Assembly (NCBI GenBank): GCA_947378425.1 | Contig: CANCJV010000001.1 | Span: 1-64,000 of the forward strand | Direction: 5' to 3' | Source of the DNA: Synechococcaceae cyanobacterium | GTDB taxonomy: Bacteria > Cyanobacteriota > Cyanobacteriia > PCC-6307 > Cyanobiaceae | Length of the DNA stretch: 64,000 nt | Shown here: piece after piece, positions 1-14,676 of the stretch | Layout of the letters: each line of letters starts with the position of its first letter | How positions within the stretch are numbered: the first letter of the stretch is position 1 | Notes under the pieces: generated by a model | The model's database searches: none | The model's input: only the letters and a program-made list of their open reading frames with translations | What the model was told of the DNA's origin: nothing | Program-made: the position numbers and the translations under genes

Positions 1-173
1 GTGCAGCCAGAAGCGCCCTGAACCGCAACGGCCCCGAGCCCTGGCGATCCGCACCCGAGCTCCAGGAGTTGCCTGGCAGAGCTCTCCTGCTTGCTGCGGC
101 CAACACGGACGCCAAGGCGCTCTGATGGGCCTCCGGCCAGGACCTGAGATCAGAACCGAGAAGCGTCAATCTC
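1..173. other. Window edge without a recognisable gene
   Basis: No open frame with recognisable protein features was found here, and no clear terminator hairpin. It lies directly downstream of the minus-strand DUF1400 hydrolase stop codon. Confidence 0.5.
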
Positions 174-1694
174 CTAGTGAGCCACCCGCACCAGGGCCAT
201 CTCCGCATCACCCCAGCCTGCGGGGGGCAGCAGGCTGGCAGCGGCCGGAGCCGGCCGCACTCCGGCTCCGGCCGCAAAGGCGCCGTTGACCCAGGCCAGC
301 AACAGGCCCCGCAGGGGGCCGCCGGCGGTCTCCTGGGGGCCCCGCAGGTTGAAATGATCGCCGCCAGCCACCAGCACCAGGTCATGGCCACCGGGGCTGG
401 AGGAGCGGAAGGGATCAATCGCCTCTGGATCCGCTGGAACCACCCAATCCTGGCTGCCGCTCACCAGCAGCACCCGGGCCTGCAAGGCCATCGACGAGCC
501 AGGAGCAAACAACAATTGCAGCGGCGGACTGACCGCCGCCACCGCCATCACCCGCGGATCAGCCAGGCCGGCGCGATCCGCCGCATCGAGAAAGCTGCAC
601 TGCAGCACCCAACTGAGGTTGCGACCAGGATCATCCAGGCTGCTGCAGCGCTGCTGGAGCAACTTCGAACTGGGCGTGGCCCCCGCCAGCTGCAGCGCCG
701 TGGTGGCACCCCAGGAATGGCCGATCACCACGACGCGATCGGCCTTGACATGGCCCAGCCCCGAGATCCGGCCGTCAGCCACGGCATCGATCACCGCCGA
801 GACATCCAGGGGACGCAGCTTCAGCTCCTCCGGGCCAGGCGGTGGAGCGCTGCCGGAGAGCATCGCCTGCTGCTGACTGTGATCACTGCCGGGATGGAAA
901 GGCAGGATCACCGTGTAGCCATGGCTGGCCAGATGCCGGGCCCAGCCCTCGAAACTGGTGGGGCCATCCCAGAGGCCATGGGAGATGACAACCAGTTGGC
1001 CATTGCCCCCCTGGGAGGGCCTGATCACCTCCATCTCCAGGGGAGCAGGGCGGTGCTTCACCACCAGGCTGGCCTTGCTCTGCTGCAGCGCCAAGGGACC
1101 GGCGGCCTCCATCCGGGGATCCACGCTCACCGCCGGCTGACTGGCAGCCAACTGCCGCGCCTCCGTTTGCTGGCGCTTGAGCCGGTTGAGACCACGCAGG
1201 GCCGGCTCGAAATCCAGGGTGGCGGTATGCCCGGGCAACGCCTGAATCAGGCCCAGAACCGTGAGCTCGCCGTTGACCTTGGCCTTCTCAAGGGCCTGAT
1301 TGAGCTGCTCGCCATCCACCCGGTTCGGCAGGCCATCGATCTTGCCCAGAATCGACGCCACCAGCAGGGCTTGCTCAAACAGGGGCGTGCCGGCCGAATT
1401 GGCCACCAGCTTCTTGACCCGCAACGGCAAAGGAGTATCGAACAGCTGCTCGAGCTGGCGACCGAGGGCGCCGTTGCTGGCCCGATCCAGCTCGGCCAGG
1501 TCACTGTTTCCCTGCCGCAGCTTTTCGCGGCTGCCGAGCTCACTCACCTTGATGATGAAGTTGGTGTCCAGCAGGGGCAAGCGCAGCTGGATTTCTTCCA
1601 GAGCGCGGGCCGGGCGGCCCCAAAGGCTCGACGCCCCGACCAAGGCCAGCAGGCCAAGGCACAAGCCCCGACGACGGTGAAGACGAGTCCGCAA
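174..1694 (-). CDS. DUF1400 alpha/beta hydrolase, exported
   Basis: A 506-residue protein of the cyanobacterial family in which an N-terminal DUF1400 region precedes an alpha/beta hydrolase resembling platelet-activating-factor acetylhydrolase or dienelactone hydrolase. The N-terminus (RRRGLCLGLLALVGASSLWG) looks like a signal peptide ending near ARA. DUF1400 covers roughly residues 30-190. The hydrolase half shows an oxyanion-type HG (VISHGLWDG), the nucleophile elbow GHSWG, an acid in DWVVPADPEA and a histidine in GGDHFN, so the triad appears complete. It is probably a periplasmic esterase or lipase; the substrate is not evident. It is divergent from the cobalt transporter operon and seems monocistronic. 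A second, stand-alone DUF1400 protein lies at 21.2 kb. The family is clear; the exact start could be a few codons downstream. Confidence 0.85.
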   Translation of the reverse strand: MRTRLHRRRGLCLGLLALVGASSLWGRPARALEEIQLRLPLLDTNFIIKVSELGSREKLRQGNSDLAELDRASNGALGRQLEQLFDTPLPLRVKKLVANSAGTPLFEQALLVASILGKIDGLPNRVDGEQLNQALEKAKVNGELTVLGLIQALPGHTATLDFEPALRGLNRLKRQQTEARQLAASQPAVSVDPRMEAAGPLALQQSKASLVVKHRPAPLEMEVIRPSQGGNGQLVVISHGLWDGPTSFEGWARHLASHGYTVILPFHPGSDHSQQQAMLSGSAPPPGPEELKLRPLDVSAVIDAVADGRISGLGHVKADRVVVIGHSWGATTALQLAGATPSSKLLQQRCSSLDDPGRNLSWVLQCSFLDAADRAGLADPRVMAVAAVSPPLQLLFAPGSSMALQARVLLVSGSQDWVVPADPEAIDPFRSSSPGGHDLVLVAGGDHFNLRGPQETAGGPLRGLLLAWVNGAFAAGAGVRPAPAAASLLPPAGWGDAEMALVRVAH

Positions 1695-1989
1695 GGTGGC
1701 AGCAGTCAGGCGTTCAACAGGCTCGCATGGACCTGGAACAACGAAAACCGTCCGGAGGCTCCTGTTGACTGCCTCTGCAGACCCGTGTCAAGGCCTGATC
1801 ACCAGGGTTGCGGGCAGCGATGACTCGTGGTCTATGAACAATTAAAAGCAGAAGGTGCGCTCAGATTTTTGGCGTAGATACTTCGAGCGAACAACAGCAC
1901 TGAAAGGCAACAAAAGCTGCTTAATCAGCGGCAGGGGCTTCATTGTTCCTATCAGCTACAGTATGATTAACGAACAACTAGAGCGCCGG
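1695..1989. other. Divergent intergenic region upstream of cbiM
   Basis: This spacer separates the DUF1400 hydrolase from cbiM and must carry both promoters. It is AT-richer than the hydrolase gene. I looked for a cobalamin riboswitch (B12-box like GCCACTG with a kissing-loop frame) and for a long inverted repeat suited to a metal-sensing repressor, and saw neither convincingly. Confidence 0.4.
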
Positions 1990-2748
1990 ATGCAGTTCAA
2001 GCCAATGAGACACTCCAGTCTCCTTGCCATGGCAGGCCTCAGCTGCCTCACCATACTTCTATCTCCGTCACCTGCCCTCGCGATGCACATCGCCGAAGGG
2101 TTTCTACCAGTTCCATGGGCAGCCTTTTGGTGGCTTGTATCGCTGCCCTTTTTGCTGGTGGGCCTTCGCTCCCTGAGCCGCATCACCAAGGAGCACCCTG
2201 AACTCAAATTGCTACTTGCCCTGGCCGGCGCCTTCACCTTTGTCGTCTCGGCCCTGAAGATTCCATCTGTCACAGGCAGCAGCTCCCACCCCACTGGCAC
2301 AGGCCTTGGGGCAATTCTGTTTGGCCCCTCGATGATGGCCGTGCTGGGGGGCATCGTGCTGCTGTTCCAGGCCCTGTTGCTGGCCCACGGGGGATTGACC
2401 ACCCTGGGCGCGAACATCGTCTCGATGGCGATCGTGGGCCCGACAGTGGCTTGGTGGACTTTCAAAATCCTGCGCTCATCGGGTTTCCCGCGCCTGGCAG
2501 TGTTTGCTGCAGCGGCCCTGGCAGATCTGGCCACCTACTTAGTGACTGCGGCCCAGCTGTCGCTGGCCTTTCCTGCGGCCAGCGGTGGTTTTACCGCCTC
2601 GTTCGTGAAGTTCGGCAGCATCTATGCAATCACCCAGGTGCCATTGGCGATCACTGAGGGCCTGCTCACCATGTTGGTGTGGAACTGGCTCCAGACTTAT
2701 GGCAAACCCGAGCTGGCCATCCTTCAATTGATCCAACAGGACAACTGA
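1990..2748 (+). CDS. cbiM: Cobalt ECF transporter S component CbiM
   Basis: CbiM is the substrate-binding membrane subunit of the CbiMNQO cobalt importer. After a cleavable-looking signal peptide ([21 protein letters not shown]) comes the family hallmark MHIAEGFLP. Cleavage after ALA would leave the Met-His N-terminus, which in characterised CbiM/NikM proteins folds back to coordinate the metal ion. A conserved histidine segment ([18 protein letters not shown]) and about six hydrophobic helices follow. The ORF track opens at a GTG at 1855, but the signal peptide places the start at ATG 1990 or 2005. It heads cbiM-cbiN-cbiQ-cbiO with 3-nt or overlapping junctions. Co2+ is the likely substrate because a CbiN partner is present; Ni2+ cannot be excluded from sequence alone. 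Confidence 0.92.
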
Positions 2749-2751
2749 GCC

Positions 2752-3072
2752 ATGAAGAACAACGCTTCCAAGACGCCCACTCGCCAATGCTGGCTGTTGA
2801 TAATAAGCGTGATCGGCCTGTGTATTTTCCCTGTGATCTTCGTGCGGAGTAAGTTCACCGGCTCAGATCAGCAGGGCACCGAAGCGATCGAAAAGATCCA
2901 GCCCAGCTACAAACCTTGGTTCAAGTCGGTGATCGTGCTGCCAAGCAAGGAGATCGAGAACCTGATGTTCAGCACCCAGGCCGCCCTAGGTGCTGGTGTG
3001 CTGGGTTTTGTGATCGGCCACTACCACGGCCGCAGCTTGGTGCAAGAGCGGAACAAACCACCAATTCCATGA
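2752..3072 (+). CDS. cbiN: Cobalt transporter auxiliary subunit CbiN
   Basis: CbiN is a small two-helix protein that helps load metal into CbiM. This 106-residue protein has an N-terminal membrane helix (CWLLIISVIGLCIFPVIF), an extracytoplasmic loop with the family signature ending in IQPSYKPWF and PSKEIENLMFSTQAALGAG, and a second helix (GVLGFVIGHYHGR). It begins 3 nt after the cbiM stop and ends in a 4-nt overlap with cbiQ, so the genes are probably translationally coupled. The presence of cbiN rather than nikN/nikL supports cobalt over nickel as the cargo. The length is normal for the family. Confidence 0.9.
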   Translation: MKNNASKTPTRQCWLLIISVIGLCIFPVIFVRSKFTGSDQQGTEAIEKIQPSYKPWFKSVIVLPSKEIENLMFSTQAALGAGVLGFVIGHYHGRSLVQERNKPPIP

Positions 3073-3869
3073 GCAATCGCATCGATACCTTGGCCCATAG
3101 CAACCGCCTGAGACTTCTGCCACCAGGCCAAAAGGCGGGCTTTGCGACCACGTTGCTGCTGCTGGCGCTGGTTTCTCCGCCGCCCGTGCAACTGCTAATC
3201 AGCCTGTGGCTGGTGGTCTGGATCGTCGGCTATGCGGGCATCCCGGCGAGCACCTACCTGCCGATGTTGCTCCTGCCCTTGGGATTTGCCGCCACCAGCC
3301 TGCCCGCCATCGTGATCAATGGCGTCGGCCACGACGCTTTTGCTGTTGTACATACTGATGCCTGGCGGGGCCTGAACCAGCCGGTGGGGGGGTGGACCCT
3401 CTACATCAGCAAGCTGGGTTTAGGCCAGGCGTTGGTGTTGCTTACCCGTTCGCTGGCAGCAACCAGCGCACTGCTCTTCCTGTTGCTCACGACGCCTTTC
3501 AACGAGCTGATTCAGGTGTTCCGCAAGCTTGCCGTTCCGCCACTACTCCTGGATTTAATGGTATTTGTCTACGGCTTCATCTTCACCCTGTGGGCTATCG
3601 TCGACGAAATCGCCATTGCCCAACACGCCCGCTCGGGTTACAGCAGTTGGCAACGGTCCCTCCGCAGCCTCGGCCTGTTGATCGGCCAGCTGCTGGAGCG
3701 CTCCATGGCCAGCTACCGCGGACTGGCCTTCGGCCTCGCGGCCAGGGGGTTCAATGATGACCTGCGGCTGGTACGGTTCGTTAAATATCATTCCTCTCCG
3801 CGCCTCCAGTCCGAGGCCATCGGTGGATGTGTATTGTTAGCGGTTCTATCGGTAGCCTGGACCCGATGA
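3069..3869 (+). CDS. cbiQ: ECF transporter transmembrane T component CbiQ
   Basis: CbiQ is the membrane coupling subunit that transmits ATP hydrolysis by CbiO to the substrate-binding CbiM/N. From the ATG at 3069 (an ATGA overlap with the cbiN stop) the protein is about 266 residues. It has several long hydrophobic helices (TTLLLLALVSPPPVQLLISLWLVVWIV, ALVLLTRSLAATSALLFLLLTT, DLMVFVYGFIFTLWAIV) and the C-terminal coupling motif LAFGLAARGFN, which matches the Ala-Arg-Gly signature of T components. The ORF-track start at 2916 runs through cbiN out of frame and is not used. A further 4-nt ATGA overlap links it to cbiO. Confidence 0.9.
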   Translation: MSNRIDTLAHSNRLRLLPPGQKAGFATTLLLLALVSPPPVQLLISLWLVVWIVGYAGIPASTYLPMLLLPLGFAATSLPAIVINGVGHDAFAVVHTDAWRGLNQPVGGWTLYISKLGLGQALVLLTRSLAATSALLFLLLTTPFNELIQVFRKLAVPPLLLDLMVFVYGFIFTLWAIVDEIAIAQHARSGYSSWQRSLRSLGLLIGQLLERSMASYRGLAFGLAARGFNDDLRLVRFVKYHSSPRLQSEAIGGCVLLAVLSVAWTR

Positions 3870-4735
3870 GCCCTGGGCCAAATCACGAGGCCGCCTTGGC
3901 AGCAGTGCCCAAGCTGATCGAGTTTGAGCAGGTGGCCTACACCTATCCAAGCGGACTTCAGAGTTCCATCAAGTCACTATCGCTAAGGATGCCAAAAGGC
4001 TCCCGCTGCGGACTGATTGGCGATAACGGCTGTGGCAAAACAACCCTCTTTCTGCTTGCCCATGGGCTGCTGCGGCCCCAAAGTGGCCGCATCCTCTGGC
4101 AGGGAAAACCATTCAGCTACTGCCGAGAGGGCCTCTCACATCTTCGGCAGCGGATCGGCCTGGTGTTCCAAAATCCGGAACATCAACTGGTGGCAACTAC
4201 GGTGGCTGAAGATCTCTCCTACGGCCTGGTCAACATGGGGCTAGGGGACGATGAAATCCGCAGTCGCATCCAGACGATCGCCAATAGCTTCAACCTGGGC
4301 AACCTGCTTGATCGTCAGGTGCATAGCCTGAGCCTCGGCCAGAAAAAGATATTGTCTTTGGCAGACGTAATGGTTCTGGAGCCCGAACTCCTGCTCATGG
4401 ACGAGCCCACTGCCTACCTCAGTCCAGGCCACTGCATTGATTTGCGCCAGCGCTTGAACCGGATCCATACAGCTGGTACATCGATCATAGTGGCCACCCA
4501 TGACCTGGAATTCCTTAACGGCTGGGCCGATTGGCTGTTTGTCATGGACCAGGGTCAGCTTGTGATGGAGGGCCAACCTGCCGACGTGTTCAGCCAGCAG
4601 CAGCAGCTCGAAGAACTGAATCTAGGAATACCGCCGACCCTTGAGCTTCTGGCCGACTGGCGACAACTAGCCAAATCACACCTGAATCTGCCGCCTGCGC
4701 AGCTGGAGATGCTGGAGCGACAGTTGAGGCCATAA
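3866..4735 (+). CDS. cbiO: Cobalt ECF transporter ATPase CbiO
   Basis: CbiO is the ABC ATPase energising cobalt import. From ATG 3866 (ATGA overlap with the cbiQ stop) the protein is 289 residues. Visible motifs are Walker A GDNGCGKTT, Q-loop VFQNPEHQLV, the signature region LSLGQKK, Walker B LLLMDEP and the switch histidine in ATHDLEF. Two positions deviate from the textbook form: LSLGQ instead of LSGGQ, and LSP rather than LDP in the D-loop. Both are probably tolerated, since the catalytic glutamate and histidine are present. It ends the operon; no hairpin terminator was seen just downstream. Confidence 0.9.
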   Translation: MSPGPNHEAALAAVPKLIEFEQVAYTYPSGLQSSIKSLSLRMPKGSRCGLIGDNGCGKTTLFLLAHGLLRPQSGRILWQGKPFSYCREGLSHLRQRIGLVFQNPEHQLVATTVAEDLSYGLVNMGLGDDEIRSRIQTIANSFNLGNLLDRQVHSLSLGQKKILSLADVMVLEPELLLMDEPTAYLSPGHCIDLRQRLNRIHTAGTSIIVATHDLEFLNGWADWLFVMDQGQLVMEGQPADVFSQQQQLEELNLGIPPTLELLADWRQLAKSHLNLPPAQLEMLERQLRP

Positions 4736-4999
4736 AAACATTGGCTGACAGGATGGCTGCCGAACCTCTTCCGTCCGAAGCCTGCCGCAAGGAAGACAAA
4801 CAAAGCAGAGACGCTCCAAAAAATCCCCCCTACAGCTCCAACAAGCTGAGGAGGAATATTGAAGAGGCCCTTGTAATCGGGCAAGGCATCGCGGGGGAGG
4901 GTCACAAGCGAAGCCAAGACAATTGTTGGAACTTCGGCTATCGCATGGTCTTCTTATTTAAGTGAAGTGAAGAGCCATTGCAAACAAGATGTTGCACCC
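4736..4999. other. Intergenic region downstream of cbiO
   Basis: No gene is supported. A minus-strand frame (about 4741-4917) would encode a hydrophobic stretch (VGAVGGIFWSVSALFVFLAAGFG) that resembles a membrane segment, but it lacks recognisable context and runs on into the antisense of cbiO. It may be a relic of a small membrane protein. Confidence 0.4.
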
Positions 5000-5308
5000 T
5001 CAATCCCTGAATACGGCGAGATGGAAAGGCCTGTCGGCAGGTTGGCCACTTGGAGCATAGGTTCTAACACGCATCTGGTGATGGTCGCTCAGCAGGCCAA
5101 CCGTGCAAATTCCAGGCTCAACATCTTCATACATCTCGCTACCGACGACGCAGGAAAAATTCGTTTTGGCCGAACCCTGAAGCTCATCCTGCCAGGAGAG
5201 AACGTAGACACCAACACCCACCTTCTCACAGCTAGAAATTCGGTATCCACGAACAATGCGACCATCTGCCGCAATTACACAGGCTAAGCGGGACTCAAAA
5301 TCAGCCAT
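5000..5308 (-). CDS. Hypothetical protein, about 102 residues
   Basis: I do not recognise a named family. The 102-residue product has well-mixed composition with alternating beta-strand-like stretches (GVGVYVLSWQ, CTVGLL, MRVRTYAPSG) and ends PADRPFHLAVF, a tail I associate loosely with short cyanobacterial hypothetical proteins. There is no signal peptide and no membrane helix. The antisense frames read poorly as protein, which favours this strand. It stands alone between the cobalt transporter and the thiocyanate hydrolase operon, on the same strand as the latter but beyond its terminator. Moderate confidence that it is a real gene; none about function. Confidence 0.5.
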   Translation of the reverse strand: MADFESRLACVIAADGRIVRGYRISSCEKVGVGVYVLSWQDELQGSAKTNFSCVVGSEMYEDVEPGICTVGLLSDHHQMRVRTYAPSGQPADRPFHLAVFRD

Positions 5309-6020
5309 TGCGATAAATGATTTTACAATATAAATTTAGGGGAAGACTCATGCAGGCGGTCAAACGTGAGGAAAACAACACTCGCTCAAAACGCGCGTCA
5401 TGCGGACACGCAGCCGATACTTAACTTAACAGTGGAGCTACTGAAGGGCACCTCAAAAAATTCCAATTCCCACCGTGGTTGAGCTCAGTAAGACTCATTT
5501 CCCAGTCTGAGCTGCCCCGATCAGGAAGTCCCGGCAAGGGCGATTTTTCGAGCCACCCTGAACCAAACCATCCCACGGGTGGATTGGCACGCCCTTGATG
5601 ACAGAGAAGCGTCGCAACGAAAAACAATCAGCCAAAGGGACCACAGGCCAGACGATTAAGCCATGGTTAAACCTGTAGAAGCCCTGCGTCCACCATCCCA
5701 AAAACTGTTTACATCAATGCAACGGGACAGGAAGGATACCAACAGGAAAGGCGGTACTGGACGCAGCGATCAGCACACCAGATTTGCCACTTCTAGCTTG
5801 GCCCGCATAGGAAACAGCATGAGATATGAATAAAGATTCGCCTTTGCTCGAGCTCAACCCCCAAGCGACAATCAGGCAACCATTACAGAAGCAAACCTCT
5901 TTATTGTCGCCCAAACCGAGAAGAAGAAGGCCTCAAAACTGGATTAAAAGCTTTTATTTGCAACCAGAACCAATGCGAATGGATGATCGACTTTTGTTTG
6001 CAATGGCAGCAATTTGAATC
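5309..6020. other. Gene-poor AT-rich intergenic region
   Basis: About 0.7 kb without a supportable gene. The ORFs of 60-70 codons on both strands look like random open frames. It contains a short element with IS5-like ends (5445-5559, listed separately). Otherwise I see nothing structured in it. Confidence 0.5.
5445..5559. repeat. MITE-like element with IS5-type inverted ends
   Basis: The left end agggcacctcaaaaaatt and the right end gatttttcgagccaccct are imperfect inverted copies of each other. Both closely resemble the terminal repeats of the IS5-type element at 10388-11507 (gggcacctcgaataat and atttttcgaggtaccc). The interior is only about 80 nt and includes a hairpin (agctcagtaagact / agtctgagct). 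This is the structure expected of a non-autonomous derivative. Confidence 0.4.
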
Positions 6021-6054
6021 AAAAAAAATGGCCTGCCATCAAGACAGCAGGCCA
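6021..6054 (-). terminator. Intrinsic terminator of the thiocyanate hydrolase operon
   Basis: On the minus strand tggcctgc and gcaggcca form a perfect 8-bp stem around a 10-nt loop, followed directly by eight T residues. It lies about 100 nt past the last gene of the operon, in the right orientation. Confidence 0.85.
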
Positions 6055-6151
6055 ATGAACTGACTTATGAAAACGAACGAGTCAGTGCTGTCTCAAGCGA
6101 ACATAGCTTATGCCAGCGCTTCGACAAGTATAGCAAAAGTGGCGCAACGCC

Positions 6152-6505
6152 TTACTCCTCTAGTCTTGAACGGACAGCTGCCAAACGATCCCGCAGCTCT
6201 TGCTTGCTGATTATACCCCTTGACAGAAGTGAGTGGGCAAGACTGACAAGCTGATTCTCGGGATAGGGAAGATTGGAGTATGTAGTTGCAGACAGCTCAT
6301 CCTCTTCATCACGCCGTTCCTTGAACGAGAGCAAGGAATTATCTGCGTCTGTGCAGGAATGATCGAGTGCGTCGCAAATTCCATCGAGACTCGTCTTCCA
6401 TGGAGGCAACGGGTTCTCGACTCCATACTTAGCCGAGACAATCGGCCAAGTATGGTTGCTCTCAGAGATCTCCTGAAGGAGATCTATTTTCGCTTCGCTG
6501 GTCAT
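6152..6505 (-). CDS. Putative thiocyanate hydrolase/nitrile hydratase maturation protein (P15K/P14K-like)
   Basis: A 117-residue protein, third gene of the operon. Co-type nitrile hydratases have a small activator (P14K/NhlE) encoded after the alpha gene, and the Thiobacillus thioparus thiocyanate hydrolase operon has P15K in the corresponding place. These chaperones insert cobalt and promote oxidation of the claw cysteines. The C-terminal part (PYPENQLVSLAHSLLSRGIISKQELRDRLAAVRSRL) has the look of the helical NHase beta-like fold of these activators: an aromatic/Pro-Glu-x-Gln start, a helix with a Leu-x-x-x-Gly turn, then an E-L-R helix. The N-terminal WPIVSAKYGVENPLPPWKTSLDGICDAL also suits the family. 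It starts 19 nt after the gamma stop. The assignment rests mainly on position and size. Confidence 0.65.
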   Translation of the reverse strand: MTSEAKIDLLQEISESNHTWPIVSAKYGVENPLPPWKTSLDGICDALDHSCTDADNSLLSFKERRDEEDELSATTYSNLPYPENQLVSLAHSLLSRGIISKQELRDRLAAVRSRLEE

Positions 6506-6524
6506 AATTCAGTGTGGTAGCCGA

Positions 6525-7235
6525 TCAAGAACCAATGGGACGGACTGCAGGCTTTGTCTTTGTTTTGACGTTCGTTGTCACACCTGGCTTCGGAAGTGCA
6601 ACTCCAATCATGCAGTCGCGCGTAACAATTTCAGCCAGCTGATCTTCAGACCACCCATCGGTACCCTCCGGACGGATTGGCATCACCATGAAGCGGTGCT
6701 TTTGATTGGAATCTTCGATACGAACTTCGACGTTATCGGGAATTTCCAAGCCAAATTCAGCGAGGACTGGACGTGGCCAGCGGACAATACGACGGCGATA
6801 GTTGGGAGAGCGATACCATTCAGGCGAATTACCCAAAAGCGGCCGCGGATAGCAAGAGCAAAGACAACAAACGATCACGTGGTGAACGGTTGGAGTGTCC
6901 TCAAGGATCTGGAGAGCGTGAAAATCACTGATTGTCCCTGATCCGGTGGGGTTCAACCAGTCCACACCAACTTGCAAAGAGGCTTTAATTGGGTCGGTCA
7001 GCGCCAGCTTTTTAAACTCCGGGTCTAACCAAGCCTTGGCAACCAGCTTGGCACCAGGAGTGGGGCCAATGTGCTCTGCAAATTCCGTATAGATTCTATG
7101 TTGTTCGGCTGTAAAAATACCTTTTTCAATACACAGTTCTCGCACTGCAATTTCTAGAACTTCAAACTCGGTGATCTCGTCGACCATCGGTTTGACAGTA
7201 CTTTCGTGGTCGTGGTCGTGATGATGTTCGGACAT
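6525..7235 (-). CDS. scnC: Thiocyanate hydrolase gamma subunit (cobalt site)
   Basis: This 236-residue protein belongs to the nitrile hydratase alpha / thiocyanate hydrolase gamma family. A His/Asp-rich N-terminus (MSEHHHDHDHE) precedes KLVAKAWLDPEFKK, the metal-site segment VIVCCLCSCYPRP (residues about 121-131), SPEWYRSPNYRRRIVRWPR, VLAEFGLEIP, and RPEGTDGWSEDQLAEIVTRDCMIGVALPKPG. These last segments match my memory of Thiobacillus ScnC more closely than true nitrile hydratases. The enzyme hydrolyses SCN- to carbonyl sulfide and ammonia, using low-spin Co(III) held by three cysteines (here C123, C126, C128), two of them oxidised after translation. The usual Thr after the first Cys is Cys here. 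It follows the fused beta-alpha gene by 42 nt. Confidence 0.82.
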   Translation of the reverse strand: MSEHHHDHDHESTVKPMVDEITEFEVLEIAVRELCIEKGIFTAEQHRIYTEFAEHIGPTPGAKLVAKAWLDPEFKKLALTDPIKASLQVGVDWLNPTGSGTISDFHALQILEDTPTVHHVIVCCLCSCYPRPLLGNSPEWYRSPNYRRRIVRWPRPVLAEFGLEIPDNVEVRIEDSNQKHRFMVMPIRPEGTDGWSEDQLAEIVTRDCMIGVALPKPGVTTNVKTKTKPAVRPIGS

Positions 7236-7277
7236 GATGTTGGTGAGGCTGGTGGAGTATACAGATAAATCGGGGGG

Positions 7278-8117
7278 TCAGGCGGCAGCTTGAAGCCAGC
7301 GCTCAGGAATCTCCGTTTGTAGGGAGTCGCTCGCGGGCCCGTGGTAGGAATCCCAGAGTTCAACTTGTTTGAATCGGACAATATAGAACCATTCAGGCTT
7401 GTCTCCTTCGCGTCCCCAGGCTTCGTCCTCGGGAGCAGGACTTTCGTAGCTGACCCTAGAAATGACCCCTTCAGCACCCCTTACGTATTCGGGAGTGCGG
7501 GTATAAAGCAGTGCGGGCAAGTCACGAACCTTCACTCGATCGCCAACCTTGAACTTGGCAGGATCGGCCTGCCCTTCATACATGCTTGGATCACCCTTAC
7601 CAAGAGAGTCGGCAACCCACTTGTTGCGCTTAACTTTCGATCCATCTCCTTCAAATTTGGGCTGAGCGTCCGGAAGCCGACCATTGAGGCTTCCAGCATA
7701 ACGCTCTTGAATCTCAACCAACCGATCGGTAAGTTCTCCCCATGTGATGTATTCCTTCTCGACAAGAGTCTTGGTTGCTGCCCACAGCCAACGAAAATAG
7801 TAGGGGAGGCCAAGGTAGGCAGATAGCCCTATTTCAACGTCGGCGATTCGACGCCTCTCCTCGGAAACCCAAACACCTCCCCAACCCAAAACTTCACAGA
7901 GTACGTAGGTCATCAACTCCCACTGTTCTTCCTGTTTTTCAAGGAAGGGTTCGGCTGGATTGAGTTGTCCGCCCTGATCTTGAGGACACTTCATGTATGC
8001 CCAAAAAACATCAGAGGAAATCATGTCCCCTGAGGTCCATTCAGGCAGTTCTGGATATGATGCTTTGAGGCGAGAAATGAGGGCTAGCTTTTTTTCCCTA
8101 TGAGACGCAGTAGTCAT
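7278..8117 (-). CDS. scnBA: Thiocyanate hydrolase beta-alpha fusion subunit
   Basis: This 279-residue protein joins two chains that are separate in T. thioparus thiocyanate hydrolase. Residues about 1-160 resemble ScnB (EEQWELMTYVLCEVLGWGGVW, SEERRR, LGLPYYFRWLWAATKTLVEKEYIT, LTDRLVEIQERYA). Residues about 180-279 resemble ScnA (FKVGDRVKVRDLPALLYTRTPEYVRGAEG, YESPAPEDEAWG, EWFYIVRF, TEIPERWLQAA), an SH3-like barrel. Nitrile hydratase beta has the same order in one chain, but its usual GIHDxGG start is absent. The ORF track starts at 8399; I use ATG 8117 because a strong promoter lies at 8149-8177, inside the longer frame, and the upstream residues look non-coding. It is the first gene of the operon. 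Confidence 0.8.
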   Translation of the reverse strand: MTTASHREKKLALISRLKASYPELPEWTSGDMISSDVFWAYMKCPQDQGGQLNPAEPFLEKQEEQWELMTYVLCEVLGWGGVWVSEERRRIADVEIGLSAYLGLPYYFRWLWAATKTLVEKEYITWGELTDRLVEIQERYAGSLNGRLPDAQPKFEGDGSKVKRNKWVADSLGKGDPSMYEGQADPAKFKVGDRVKVRDLPALLYTRTPEYVRGAEGVISRVSYESPAPEDEAWGREGDKPEWFYIVRFKQVELWDSYHGPASDSLQTEIPERWLQAAA

Positions 8118-8148
8118 TAGGAAGGCTTTGGCAATAGAACACTCTAAT

Positions 8149-8177
8149 ATTATGACCCGTGTCAAACCTTCTGTCAA
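8149..8177 (-). promoter_or_regulatory. Sigma70-type promoter of the thiocyanate hydrolase operon
   Basis: Read on the minus strand, TTGACA (8177-8172) is followed after exactly 17 nt by CATAAT (8154-8149). This predicts transcription from about 8142 and a leader of roughly 25 nt before ATG 8117. A second TTGACA lies 5 nt inside the spacer. No clear Shine-Dalgarno sequence is visible in the leader. Confidence 0.7.
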
Positions 8178-8244
8178 CGTACCCGGTCGCGGCCCGGGAC
8201 AGTTCGGGATGGCAGATCGCGAGGGCTGAATCCTTGACGGCAGC

Positions 8245-8514
8245 TTGATTTCCATTTGCATCTCAGGCAGAGACTGTTTGAGATTTGGCGCCCCTCCTGC
8301 TGGCATTTCTGAAGCGGACTGGTTGTCGTGGCCAGCCGGTGCCAGGGAACTCATCTTGACTCTGCAGGAGGAAATCGACCAGCTCCGCGCCCAACTCACC
8401 GCCTTGCCGACCGAGCTGGCCAGCCCGCGGGAGCGGATCGGCCGCAGTTCTCACAACTCTCCAGACCGTCCTCCAGCGACGGCCTTAGTGGACAGTCCCG
8501 GATATAGTAGCTAA
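8245..8514 (+). pseudogene. Truncated IS66-type transposase N-terminus
   Basis: The 89-codon frame reads GISEADWLSWPAGARELILTLQEEIDQLRAQLTALPTELASPRERIGRSSHNS, the leucine-zipper-like N-terminus of IS66-family TnpC transposases (normally ...LRERIGRSSRNSSKPPSSDGPG). Just after SSHNS the frame shifts: the PPSSDG part survives in another frame (tcctccagcgacggc). The rest of the roughly 500-residue transposase is missing and IS630 sequence follows immediately, so this is a dead fragment. Confidence 0.75.
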
Positions 8515-8546
8515 AATAAGGATCGCCTCCTGGGGGGAGTCGTTCC

Positions 8547-9006
8547 ATGGCAGTTGGCCGCCCGATGCCGCCGCTGGTTCTCAGCGACGACGAGGTTCAG
8601 CAACTCCAGAGCATCGCCAACTCAAGGTCGTTGCCCCATTCGATCGTGCAGAGGTCGCACATCGTGCTGGCTTGCGGAGCCGGTGAAACCAACACAGCCA
8701 TTGCCATGCGGATGGGTTTGACGGGCATGACCGTGGGCAAGGGGCGCAAGCGTTACCGGGACCTCGGCCTGAAGGGTTTACACGACGAACTCAGGCCAGG
8801 GCGGCCTCGCACCTATGAGAATGACAAAGTGGCCGAGGTGATCAACCGGGCCCTGCAGAGCAAGCCCGCAGACGGTAGTACGCAGTGGACAGCCCCCTCC
8901 TTGGCGGCTGCTACAGGCATCTCCAAAAGTACGGCGCACCGCTGGCTACAGACCTTCTCCCTGCAGCCCCACCGCCAGAAATCGTTCAAGCCAGAGAGAG
9001 AACCCT
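8547..9006 (+). pseudogene. Truncated IS630-family transposase
   Basis: From ATG 8547 the frame encodes the N-terminal helix-turn-helix half of an IS630 transposase: LVLSDDEVQQLQSIANSRSLPHSIVQRSHIVLACGAGETNTAIAMRMGLTGMTVGKGRKRYRDLGLKGLHDELRPGRPRTY, then SIAAATGISKSTAHRWLQ-type sequence up to LQPHRQKSFK. The family continues with a DDE catalytic domain, which is absent. After KSFKP the same frame runs into unrelated DNA polymerase-like sequence. A TA-flanked left end may sit near 8508-8520. The element cannot encode a working transposase. Confidence 0.8.
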
Positions 9007-9399
9007 GGAGGGTCTCCAGTCCCCTGGGGAGGCGGATGGCAGGCCACCGGTTCACTAAAGGGGAGCCTGGGGTCCGCTTCAGTGGCTCCGCCCCCGAGAG
9101 CCTCAAGTCCACCGCCGCTCTGGTTTTCCCCATCCAGGCCGCCGGAGCAGAACTGCTGAAGATGGGCCCTGGCTCTGCTGATGCCCCGCCTCTTGGAGGA
9201 GCTTCCCGGCGTGAGGCTCTGCCTTGTAATCCATGACGCGATCGTGCTGGAGGCTCCCGAGGCTCTGGCTCAGGCCACAGCGGATCTGCGGCTGGAGGTC
9301 ATGCATGCAGGACCCGGACTCCAGGCCCGCTACCTGAAGAACATCCTTCCCCTAGTGGCGGATGTCCGGGTGGGGCGGCGCTGGGCAGAGACCCACTGA
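9007..9399 (+). pseudogene. DNA polymerase I (family A) C-terminal fragment
   Basis: Sequence downstream of the IS630 break encodes the C-terminal end of a family A polymerase. SPLGRRMAGHRF recalls the T-x-x-GRxR segment and FPIQAAGAELLKM the NFPIQ helix. After a frameshift near 9163 come LALLMPRLLEELPG, motif C VRLCLVIHDAIVLEAPEALAQA (His-Asp catalytic pair), and the terminal VADVRVGRRWAE. The 5' two thirds are missing. Compact enzymes of this type are encoded by phages and plasmids, so this is probably a relic of such an element rather than the chromosomal polA. Confidence 0.65.
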
Positions 9400-9427
9400 G
9401 GCTCGGAGCATCCGGCTGGCGGTGTGT

Positions 9428-10141
9428 TCAGATCACGGCCTTGGTGAGTTGCAGGATGCGGGTGAAGACCGCGGCATAAAGCGCCAGGATCATGACGAGA
9501 TAACCGAGCACCAGCAGTCGGCCGACATGGTTGGTGCCGACAATCGTTGCTTTATCCCTGTTGCCTCTGTTCAGCAGTGTGTTGACGGCGGAGTGGTAGT
9601 AATCGAATTGGGTGATGCCCCTGCTGTAATCGGCATCGGAGAGCTTCACGACATGGCCGGGTTCGCTCTGGCCCACCCAGTCCAGCCGCTGGAAGACCCA
9701 GCCCCAGGTGAGCACGAAATAGGGTATGTAGAGAACGATCTGGCCAAGCAGCACGGCGGTCTCCACCTTGGAACCTTCGAAGAGCAGTCCGTTGATGGTG
9801 AGGAATTCAGCCAACAGCCGCAGCGAAAACCAGAGGCCAGCGCCATCAAAGCTCCAGCGGGGCAGCAACCTCTTCCGCCCCAGGAGCACCGCCATGGTCG
9901 CCAGCCACACCCCGAACACCACCATGGCAACGGGGTGCACCCGGTGGGCCAGCAGATAGGACCAGCCCGCCACTAGCTGTCCGGCATCGCTGCCGCCCAT
10001 GAGGTTGCCAAAGTTGCCAGCACTGCGGCGCAGCATTTCGGCATTGATGTTCTGCAGCAAGTACAACACGACCAGCACTGCCAGTTCACCGGACTGGGCG
10101 CGGCGGGCGGCGGGGGCAATCACCATGGAGGACGAGCACAA
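9428..10141 (-). CDS. Multi-pass membrane protein, ion-channel-like
   Basis: A 237-residue membrane protein with about five or six hydrophobic segments (LAVLVVLYLLQNINAEML, HRVHPVAMVVFGVWLATMAVLLG, VETAVLLGQIVLYIPYFVLTWGWVF, LLVLGYLVMILALYAAVFTRILQL). Its last third (ITQFDYYHSAVNTLLN... then a long final helix) has the layout of a pore helix, re-entrant loop and inner helix as in two-helix potassium channel domains, but no TVGYGD-like filter is present. It shares this layout with the protein at 16671-17420. It could be a channel relative or another small-molecule membrane protein. Start may be the second Met at 10126. It lies between decayed transposase remnants. Confidence 0.6.
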   Translation of the reverse strand: MCSSSMVIAPAARRAQSGELAVLVVLYLLQNINAEMLRRSAGNFGNLMGGSDAGQLVAGWSYLLAHRVHPVAMVVFGVWLATMAVLLGRKRLLPRWSFDGAGLWFSLRLLAEFLTINGLLFEGSKVETAVLLGQIVLYIPYFVLTWGWVFQRLDWVGQSEPGHVVKLSDADYSRGITQFDYYHSAVNTLLNRGNRDKATIVGTNHVGRLLVLGYLVMILALYAAVFTRILQLTKAVI

Positions 10142-10387
10142 CAGAAAACCTGGATGAATCCAGGGCTGGGACCGACTTTATCGGGCTTGTCGGGATCCGG
10201 GGATGTCCGCGGGCCCGGAACAGGGCTGACTGCGAGTGAATGTGCCTGCGGCCGCTAACCGCACTGGCGAGGCCACCAGCGCAAACGCTCGGGGATCAAA
10301 AGGTCATGAGGTCACCTCTCACGAAGACAAAAACGATGTACGACTAGTCCATTTTAAAAACTTAGAAGACGAATAGCACTTACTATT
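10142..10387. other. Intergenic region between membrane protein and IS remnant
   Basis: No gene supported. It presumably holds the promoter for the minus-strand membrane protein; no motif stands out. Confidence 0.4.
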
Positions 10388-11507
10388 GGGCACCTCGAAT
10401 AATCATCACTTTTCAGAAGCTTTGCGGACATGAAAATGCAGCCAAGGAGGCGGCTACGCAGGAAAATCTTCCACCCATGGTCATGCAGCCAAAGACATTC
10501 TCAACACAAGCTCTGATTGACGACTTGACACGATTCAATTCCTTGACTGCGTCGCTTAGCGGATGATTGCGAGCGCCTTTTTCGTGGATCAGGCTTTCGA
10601 AGTCACCGAGGCTCAGAAGATCATCAAAGCATTCACCAGAACTCGCTGAGTCTGCCCGGACATAGTCATGCTCGTTTTCTGGATCCAGCAGTAGTGGAAG
10701 CATCTGGCTGTCGTGGATATTAGCAGGAGTGACAACCTATCGGCGAATGAATCCATAGTCGACATTGATGCAGATGCTGTTCTTATAACCGTATTAACTG
10801 ATGCCGTTCCTTTTTGTCCAGCCAGCATCTAAATTCTTTTTCTGCAAGCGATCTGGGTTTTCACCCCAGCCCTCCGGCAGCCTTCCGGCTTTGATTTCCT
10901 TGTTTTCCTCGCGGGTATTGCGTTGCTATGGCTAAGCAGAAGCCTGCGGCAAGGGTACAGGAACGAGAGTCGCGTCAATGATCTGACCACCACGGGCTAG
11001 GAGACCCTAGGAGCGCAGCTATGCCTCAAACATCTCAAAGAGTAACTCGATAACTCCCGCCTTGCGCAGTCGCTCCCTGAAGAATGCGACTGTAGTGGCA
11101 TCTGGAATGTTGTTCATCACGCCAAGCCCGACAAATTCCTCGAAGGAGCCTCTGTCATTCACCTGGAATTCAAGCTCGTCAACCGCAAGCGGAAGGCTAC
11201 GCCTACGCTGAGGTTGAAAAGCTGCTGGAGAACGAGCATCTTGGAAAAGATCAGCGGATCAATCCTCTTGCGCCCTGCATTGCTCTTGCGCACGTGCTCA
11301 TAGCCCTTGTCAAGCAGTGGGCGGAATCATTCCCATGGGATTAAATCAGCCAGGCACTTGAGAGCCGCTTTTTTATCTTGGAGCTTTGTGACTCTTTTCT
11401 GTTCGTCCCAGAAGCCTCTCTGACCCACTGTTGGCATGAAAATTGCTCAACCAATTAAATCCAGATCATGCCGCAATCAACTGCCTTGATGATTTTTCGA
11501 GGTACCC
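10388..11507 (-). mobile_element. Decayed IS5-type insertion sequence, about 1.1 kb
   Basis: Imperfect terminal inverted repeats bound the element: gggcacctcgaataatcatca at the left, and at the right the reverse complement of gggtacctcgaaaaatcatca (19 of 21 positions match). The interior encodes a broken minus-strand transposase. A clear target-site duplication could not be assigned. Confidence 0.75.
10413..11437 (-). pseudogene. IS5-family transposase, multiply frameshifted
   Basis: Reading the minus strand from ATG 11437 gives MPTVGQRGFWDEQKRVTKLQDKKAALKCLADLIPW, then a stop, then (in phase) FRPLLDKGYEHVRKSNAGRKRIDPLIFSKMLVLQQLFNLS, typical of IS5/IS1182-like DDE transposases. The middle is scattered over several frames. 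The C-terminal part appears as a VRADSASSGECFDD-like catalytic segment and LIHEKGARNHPLSDAVKELNRVKSSIRACVENVFGCM, including the VRARVEHVFG-type motif. At least one stop codon and several frameshifts make it non-functional. Confidence 0.8.
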
Positions 11508-11631
11508 TTAATTGCCTAAATGTCGATTTTCCAGAGTCTTGTTAGGATTTGGCTTCCTGACTACTCAAGCCAGATTTACCAATGATTACACTTGATCACC
11601 CAGGGGAAAGTCCTCTGATTCCAGGTCTGCC

Positions 11632-14676
<3,045 letters not shown>

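Follow-up and report, generated by a model that had tools for sequence, protein, structure and literature searches.

The window analysed here is the left end (positions 1–64000) of a 159,625-bp contig, and thus begins at a contig end, in the 3.63 Mb genome of a Synechococcaceae cyanobacterium; it carries a complete cobalt importer gene set, cbiMNQO, facing a convergent operon for the cobalt enzyme thiocyanate hydrolase (SCNase). We consider it reasonably probable that this importer, freed from the B12 (cobalamin) riboswitch, supplies cobalt to the SCNase rather than (only) to B12 synthesis. In support of this explanation, the riboswitch found in most of its close relatives has been lost, two riboswitch-led importers of the HupE type are present elsewhere in the genome, and unrelated cobalt importers are repeatedly linked to SCNase clusters in other bacteria. 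In cells cobalt is held at low levels and its uptake is coupled to B12, and how a non-corrin cobalt enzyme is supplied without upsetting this control has been little studied. Here both solutions occur in one genome, as riboswitch-controlled HupE importers and as a riboswitch-free cbiMNQO beside a cobalt enzyme; and the close relatives in which cbiMNQO keeps its riboswitch serve as a natural control.

The importer and the thiocyanate hydrolase operon

The features of the two gene sets are listed by window coordinates and strand.

1733–2004, + strand: cbiM leader lacking a cobalamin riboswitch; the match to riboswitch-led congeners starts at cbiM codon 4 (2015)
2005–2748, + strand: cbiM, substrate-specific S component of a cobalt energy-coupling factor (ECF) importer (PF01891, 186 bits; TIGR00123, 283 bits, cut-off 184)
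2752–3072, + strand: cbiN, small auxiliary membrane subunit (PF02553, 72 bits; NF002780)
3069–3869, + strand: cbiQ, T component (PF02361; TIGR02454, 143 bits, cut-off 112)
3866–4735, + strand: cbiO, ATPase (PF00005; ECF-type ATPase models and TIGR01166 cbiO are the best matches, below cut-offs)
5000–5308, - strand: orf5000, a 102-aa protein conserved in SCNase clusters
6029–6054, - strand: terminator-like hairpin after the activator gene, 11 pairs and 8 T (consensus match only)
6152–6505, - strand: P15K-type activator and proposed chaperone that loads the hydrolase with cobalt (weak NHase_beta_N match; the same gene follows gamma in related loci)
6525–7235, - strand: SCNase gamma subunit with cobalt site motif VCCLCSCYPRP (TIGR03887, 376 bits, cut-off 291)
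7278–8117, - strand: fused beta-alpha SCNase subunit, 279 aa (N-terminal part matches 2dd4_B, ScnB; C-terminal part matches 2dd4_A, ScnA)
8149–8177, - strand: promoter-like site of the hydrolase operon, TTGACA-17-CATAAT (consensus match only)

Family matches confirmed what a first-pass annotation of this DNA had described, a full CbiMNQO set facing a convergent SCNase operon. The four importer genes (2005–4735, + strand) are adjacent and overlapping or nearly so, with the cbiO start overlapping the cbiQ stop; the importer start proposed at first, 1990, is an in-frame ATG but lies upstream of the cbiM start at 2005 used here. All four components of a cobalt ECF importer stand together, including CbiN, a subunit typical of cobalt and not of nickel systems, and the mature CbiM N terminus MHIAEGFLP follows a signal-like ALA. 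Window CbiM is 85% identical to that of congener G002 and 84% to that of congener G011; a tree of CbiM from cyanobacteria places it among the CbiN-bearing copies of G002, G011, G111, G118, G087 and G100. From this placement we infer that the window CbiMNQO is specific for cobalt. CbiMNQO systems can also carry Ni2+ (PMC7689651); to an ECF importer carrying nickel, not cobalt, we give the least credence of the explanations weighed here, as the CbiN-bearing clade lies mostly behind cobalamin riboswitches and NikM-like homologues, which are ~30–35% identical and lack CbiN, form a separate group in the tree.

The gamma subunit is well above the SCNase family cut-off, scores 211 bits against the nitrile hydratase model TIGR01323 (below its cut-off of 250) and has the gamma subunit of Thiobacillus thioparus SCNase (2dd4_C, E 6e-108) as its best match in PDB. 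The window gamma has the cobalt claw C-x-L-C-S-C with YPRP after it. The Arg of the CYPRP motif is present in all SCNase sequences compared, the window included, where the cyanobacterial nitrile hydratases L003, L004 and L005 have CYPWP; and in a gamma tree the window falls inside the actinobacterial SCNase clade. The encoded enzyme is accordingly annotated as an SCNase and is predicted from these matches to have SCNase activity. SCNases have been stated to occur in Cyanobacteria, without the gene context considered here (PMC10098168); among the 386 cyanobacteria sampled here only the window genome has one above the family cut-off. The second residue of the claw motif VCCLCSC (~6850–6885, - strand) is Cys only in the window gamma, placing an extra cysteine beside the cobalt ligands; the same position among the gamma open reading frames (ORFs) of 80 related loci is Ala (57), Thr (23) or Gly (1).

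The operon comprises three genes (beta-alpha, gamma and the P15K-like activator), bracketed by the promoter-like site and the strong terminator-like hairpin. There are two structural enzyme genes and not three: ScnB and ScnA, which are separate in T. thioparus, are fused here in one 279-aa protein. Such a fusion is already known in this family, being present also in all actinobacterial loci and on two alphaproteobacterial plasmids. Likewise, homologues of the P15K gene follow gamma in related loci, including L190 and L191, where they are unannotated.

The first-pass annotation gave the distance between the two sets as 1.4 kb, which is correct for cbiO stop to activator stop but overlooks orf5000 (5308–5000, - strand). 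An ORF immediately before beta in Mycobacterium szulgai (L090) shares 81% identity with the orf5000 product, and hypothetical proteins in SCNase clusters on plasmids of Roseomonas and Azospirillum share 56–57%; no Pfam family matched the orf5000 product even at E 1. As orf5000 belongs to the SCNase-cluster genes, the gene sets are only 265 bp apart.

Riboswitch loss and the B12-linked importers of the host

A cobalamin riboswitch upstream of CbiMNQO is usual in cyanobacteria, although not strictly defining. Within the CbiM clade it lies directly upstream of cbiMNQO in five of the six relatives (G002, G011, G087, G118 and G111), whereas a search of window positions 1–9500 gave no match even at E up to 5. 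Upstream of codon 4 of cbiM the window shows no homology to G002 and G011. Since the riboswitch of most clade relatives is absent in the window, the importer is, judged by its leader, free of the usual feedback by B12.

The host genome includes photosystem reaction-centre genes and B12 synthesis (cobB), its relatives behave as cyanobacteria, and it holds exactly two cobalamin riboswitches, both elsewhere and each directly before a HupE/UreJ gene. A second cobalt importer outside the window, which the first reading of the locus had thought worth seeking, thus exists in two copies; a third HupE/UreJ gene showed no riboswitch match. The genome holds a single CbiM, and a search of it for NicO found none. 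Across the genus, a cobalamin riboswitch is present in 41 of 42 genomes and CbiM in only three, and as HupE stands beside the riboswitch in 28 of the 29 congener riboswitch loci sampled, it is the usual B12-linked importer of the genus. G002 and G011 (L122, L123) each have another CbiM-like gene, which is divergent and possibly a NikM, at a distance of ~2.5 kb from their riboswitch-led cbiMNQO; that of G002 matches in two parts and is perhaps broken.

We propose that the hydrolase operon would provide a cobalt-type SCNase, which by analogy with T. thioparus would turn SCN- into COS and NH3, together with its own cobalt-loading chaperone, P15K; and that the convergent cbiMNQO would act as an ATP-driven Co2+ importer. 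In the closest relatives, the cobalamin riboswitch would shut this importer off at sufficient B12. As the riboswitch is absent in the window, Co2+ import should continue in B12-replete cells, which would suit an enzyme that binds bare cobalt, and B12 synthesis would stay served by the two riboswitch-controlled HupE importers. Expression of cbiMNQO would then be constitutive or thiocyanate-linked, with the imported cobalt presumably passed to P15K and gamma.

Cobalt importers beside SCNase clusters in other bacteria

The neighbours of SCNase genes in other genomes were surveyed by tblastn with few queries and one motif; distant importers may therefore have escaped notice, and some of the loci are short. 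In a Mycolicibacterium (L012:11104–12501), a 465-aa ORF begins 22 bp after P15K and combines a NicO domain (residues 57–344) with a C-terminal P15K-like domain. This NiCoT-P15K fusion puts the importer and the chaperone of the enzyme into a single polypeptide, which suggests a physical link between the two. CbtA/CbtB homologues occur in the gammaproteobacterial SCNase loci L086–L089, and a homologue of CbtB in L071. On a Roseomonas plasmid (L190) CbtB-CbtA lie between scnC and the orf5000 homologue, directly preceded by a frameshifted HupE stub of ~50 codons (L190:13100–13248), while the same interval on an Azospirillum plasmid (L191) holds an intact HupE. The Roseomonas stub suggests replacement of one cobalt importer by another in place. 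Counting CbiMNQO, importers of four unrelated families are found beside this enzyme family.

These loci raise a broader possibility, which we put forward tentatively: that importer exchange recurs in SCNase clusters, a slot near P15K being filled by HupE, CbtAB, a NiCoT-P15K fusion or a B12-derepressed CbiMNQO, so as to give a dedicated non-corrin cobalt route apart from the B12 route. In the plasmid clusters of Azospirillum and Roseomonas surveyed here, HupE or CbtBA occupy the P15K-orf5000-type slot; the corresponding gap in the window (5309–6151) holds no HupE, CbtA, CbtB or NiCoT remnant that would mark a dead importer (best E 0.03, chance level).

Several observations weigh against a dedicated supply of the window enzyme by cbiMNQO. 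No importer was detected in the sequence scanned for 73 of 74 actinobacterial-type clusters, which hold the closest relatives of the enzyme; the enzyme can thus be supplied without a neighbouring importer and the linkage is not obligatory. The cbiMNQO of G100, in the same clade, also lacks the riboswitch although that genome is without any SCNase. Further, the two operons converge on each other and have no promoter in common, and no common regulator was found.

Other features of the surveyed loci were recorded. The cyanobacterial nitrile hydratases L003 (G083) and L005 (G081) have a HupE-type importer gene close downstream. In gammaproteobacterial L085–L089, an ATP-binding cassette (ABC) importer set (ATPase, Tat-like binding protein and permease), possibly for thiocyanate, follows P15K. 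Contigs L032, L042 and L071 of metagenome-assembled genomes, labelled Bifidobacterium breve or Methylocystaceae, bear mycobacterial-type SCNase genes and are probably mis-binned or mislabelled.

Arrival of the two gene sets in a variable island

Both gene sets lie in an interval between DLH, an alpha/beta-hydrolase gene (174–1694), and uvrA (from 11632).

1733–11636: variable island between DLH and uvrA
8547–9236, + strand: transposase-like helix-turn-helix fragment (HTH_32, HTH_23, HTH_29)
10413–10703, - strand: DDE transposase fragment (weak DDE_Tnp_1 and DDE_Tnp_4)

The interval is designated a variable island because it varies in length and content among relatives: G032 has 51 bp between DLH and uvrA, and other sequence fills the interval in G021 and G016 (~1.0 kb each), G028 (2.3 kb) and G007 (4.0 kb). 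Across the genus (window; L162, L164–L167) it is a hypervariable insertion site of 51 bp to ~10 kb. Contamination was ruled out, as the flanks on either side, on the same contig, match DNA of congeners at 83–96% identity and the cbi genes have their matches in congeners as well. A local misassembly of the region is possible, and the window begins at a contig end.

The first-pass annotation had suggested that the importer may serve this enzyme rather than (only) cobalamin synthesis and that the region may consequently move as a metal-plus-enzyme module. The functional half stands as probable, given the two riboswitch-led HupE loci, the riboswitch loss and the importers in other SCNase clusters. 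The module half is not supported. Were the whole region one mobile unit gained together, its single island with transposase fragments would be explained; these fragments are the only signs of mobility, and a search for terminal direct repeats shared by the island ends found none that was convincing. The GC content at third codon positions (GC3) is 0.66–0.75 in the cbi genes and 0.49–0.53 in the hydrolase cluster including orf5000, by comparison with 0.80 in flanking DLH, and the two sets do not share a base composition. Their closest relatives differ also, CbiM grouping with congeners and gamma with Actinobacteria. None of 80 SCNase loci (flanks up to 10 kb) holds CbiM, CbiN or CbiQ, and the importer-hydrolase pair was found in no other genome among these loci and the 386 cyanobacteria. 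We therefore regard acquisition as a single module as very unlikely; because GC3 differs between the sets, separate arrival in an insertion hotspot is more likely than joint travel, and the importer and hydrolase sets probably entered the island one apart from the other.

Separate arrival leaves room for coincidence, with both sets inserted between DLH and uvrA by virtue of the hotspot and the importer adding to a general cobalt supply used mostly for B12. The variability of the interval and the unlike base composition of the sets would fit such a history, as would the cbiMNQO of G002 and G011, which are under riboswitch control in genomes without SCNase. Four loci of the 3.63 Mb genome are candidate Co/Ni importers, which puts the chance of one lying <5 kb from a random point at ~1%, although the shared variable island makes coincidence somewhat likelier than this. 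We nevertheless hold coincidence to be rather unlikely: it does not account for the loss of the riboswitch from the window cbiMNQO, two HupE importers already serve B12, and other cobalt importers have repeatedly and independently become linked to SCNase clusters. None of the five congeners with both flanks readable carries cbiMNQO at this locus, where its presence in many relatives lacking the hydrolase operon had been named at the outset as the refuting pattern; the other two CbiM-bearing congeners (G002 and G011) have cbiMNQO away from DLH and uvrA. Supply of cobalt to the SCNase by a riboswitch-free cbiMNQO remains our preferred explanation.

Comparison with known systems

In T. thioparus and Thioalkalivibrio thiocyanodenitrificans, SCNase genes likewise lie next to cobalt uptake genes, and the accessible part of the account of these clusters describes different uptake systems beside scn in the two organisms (PMC5328954). 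The clusters differ from the window in having separate scnA and scnB followed by a NitT/TauT ABC importer, and in their sulfur-oxidising hosts; that part of the account describes no CbiMNQO with a lost riboswitch (PMC5328954).

In Rhodococcus rhodochrous J1, the cobalt importer gene nhlF likewise adjoins the genes of a cobalt enzyme from the same superfamily, whose order is beta, alpha, activator; it pairs a NiCoT secondary permease with nitrile hydratase, whereas the window has an ATP-driven ECF importer and an SCNase in convergent orientation. A NiCoT near a cobalt nitrile hydratase is also known (PMC7689651).

Riboswitch-linked HupE and CbiMNQO are both known in cyanobacteria (PMC4284471). 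The riboswitch-controlled cbiMNQO of G002, G011, G087, G111 and G118 encode CbiM and CbiN orthologous to those of the window (CbiM identity 60–85% over the clade), but the window set has no cobalamin riboswitch and adjoins an SCNase. In Synechocystis and marine cyanobacteria, a riboswitch before HupE ties cobalt import to B12 (PMC4284471), an arrangement present twice in the host genome; unlike the window CbiMNQO, HupE is a secondary permease and is encoded elsewhere in that genome.

In a literature search that did not cover most subscription papers, we found no published case of CbiMNQO next to an SCNase, of a riboswitch lost in this context or of a NiCoT-P15K fusion. Cobalt uptake beside SCNase is a known arrangement; what appears new is CbiMNQO as the partner and the probable regulatory rewiring that accompanies it.

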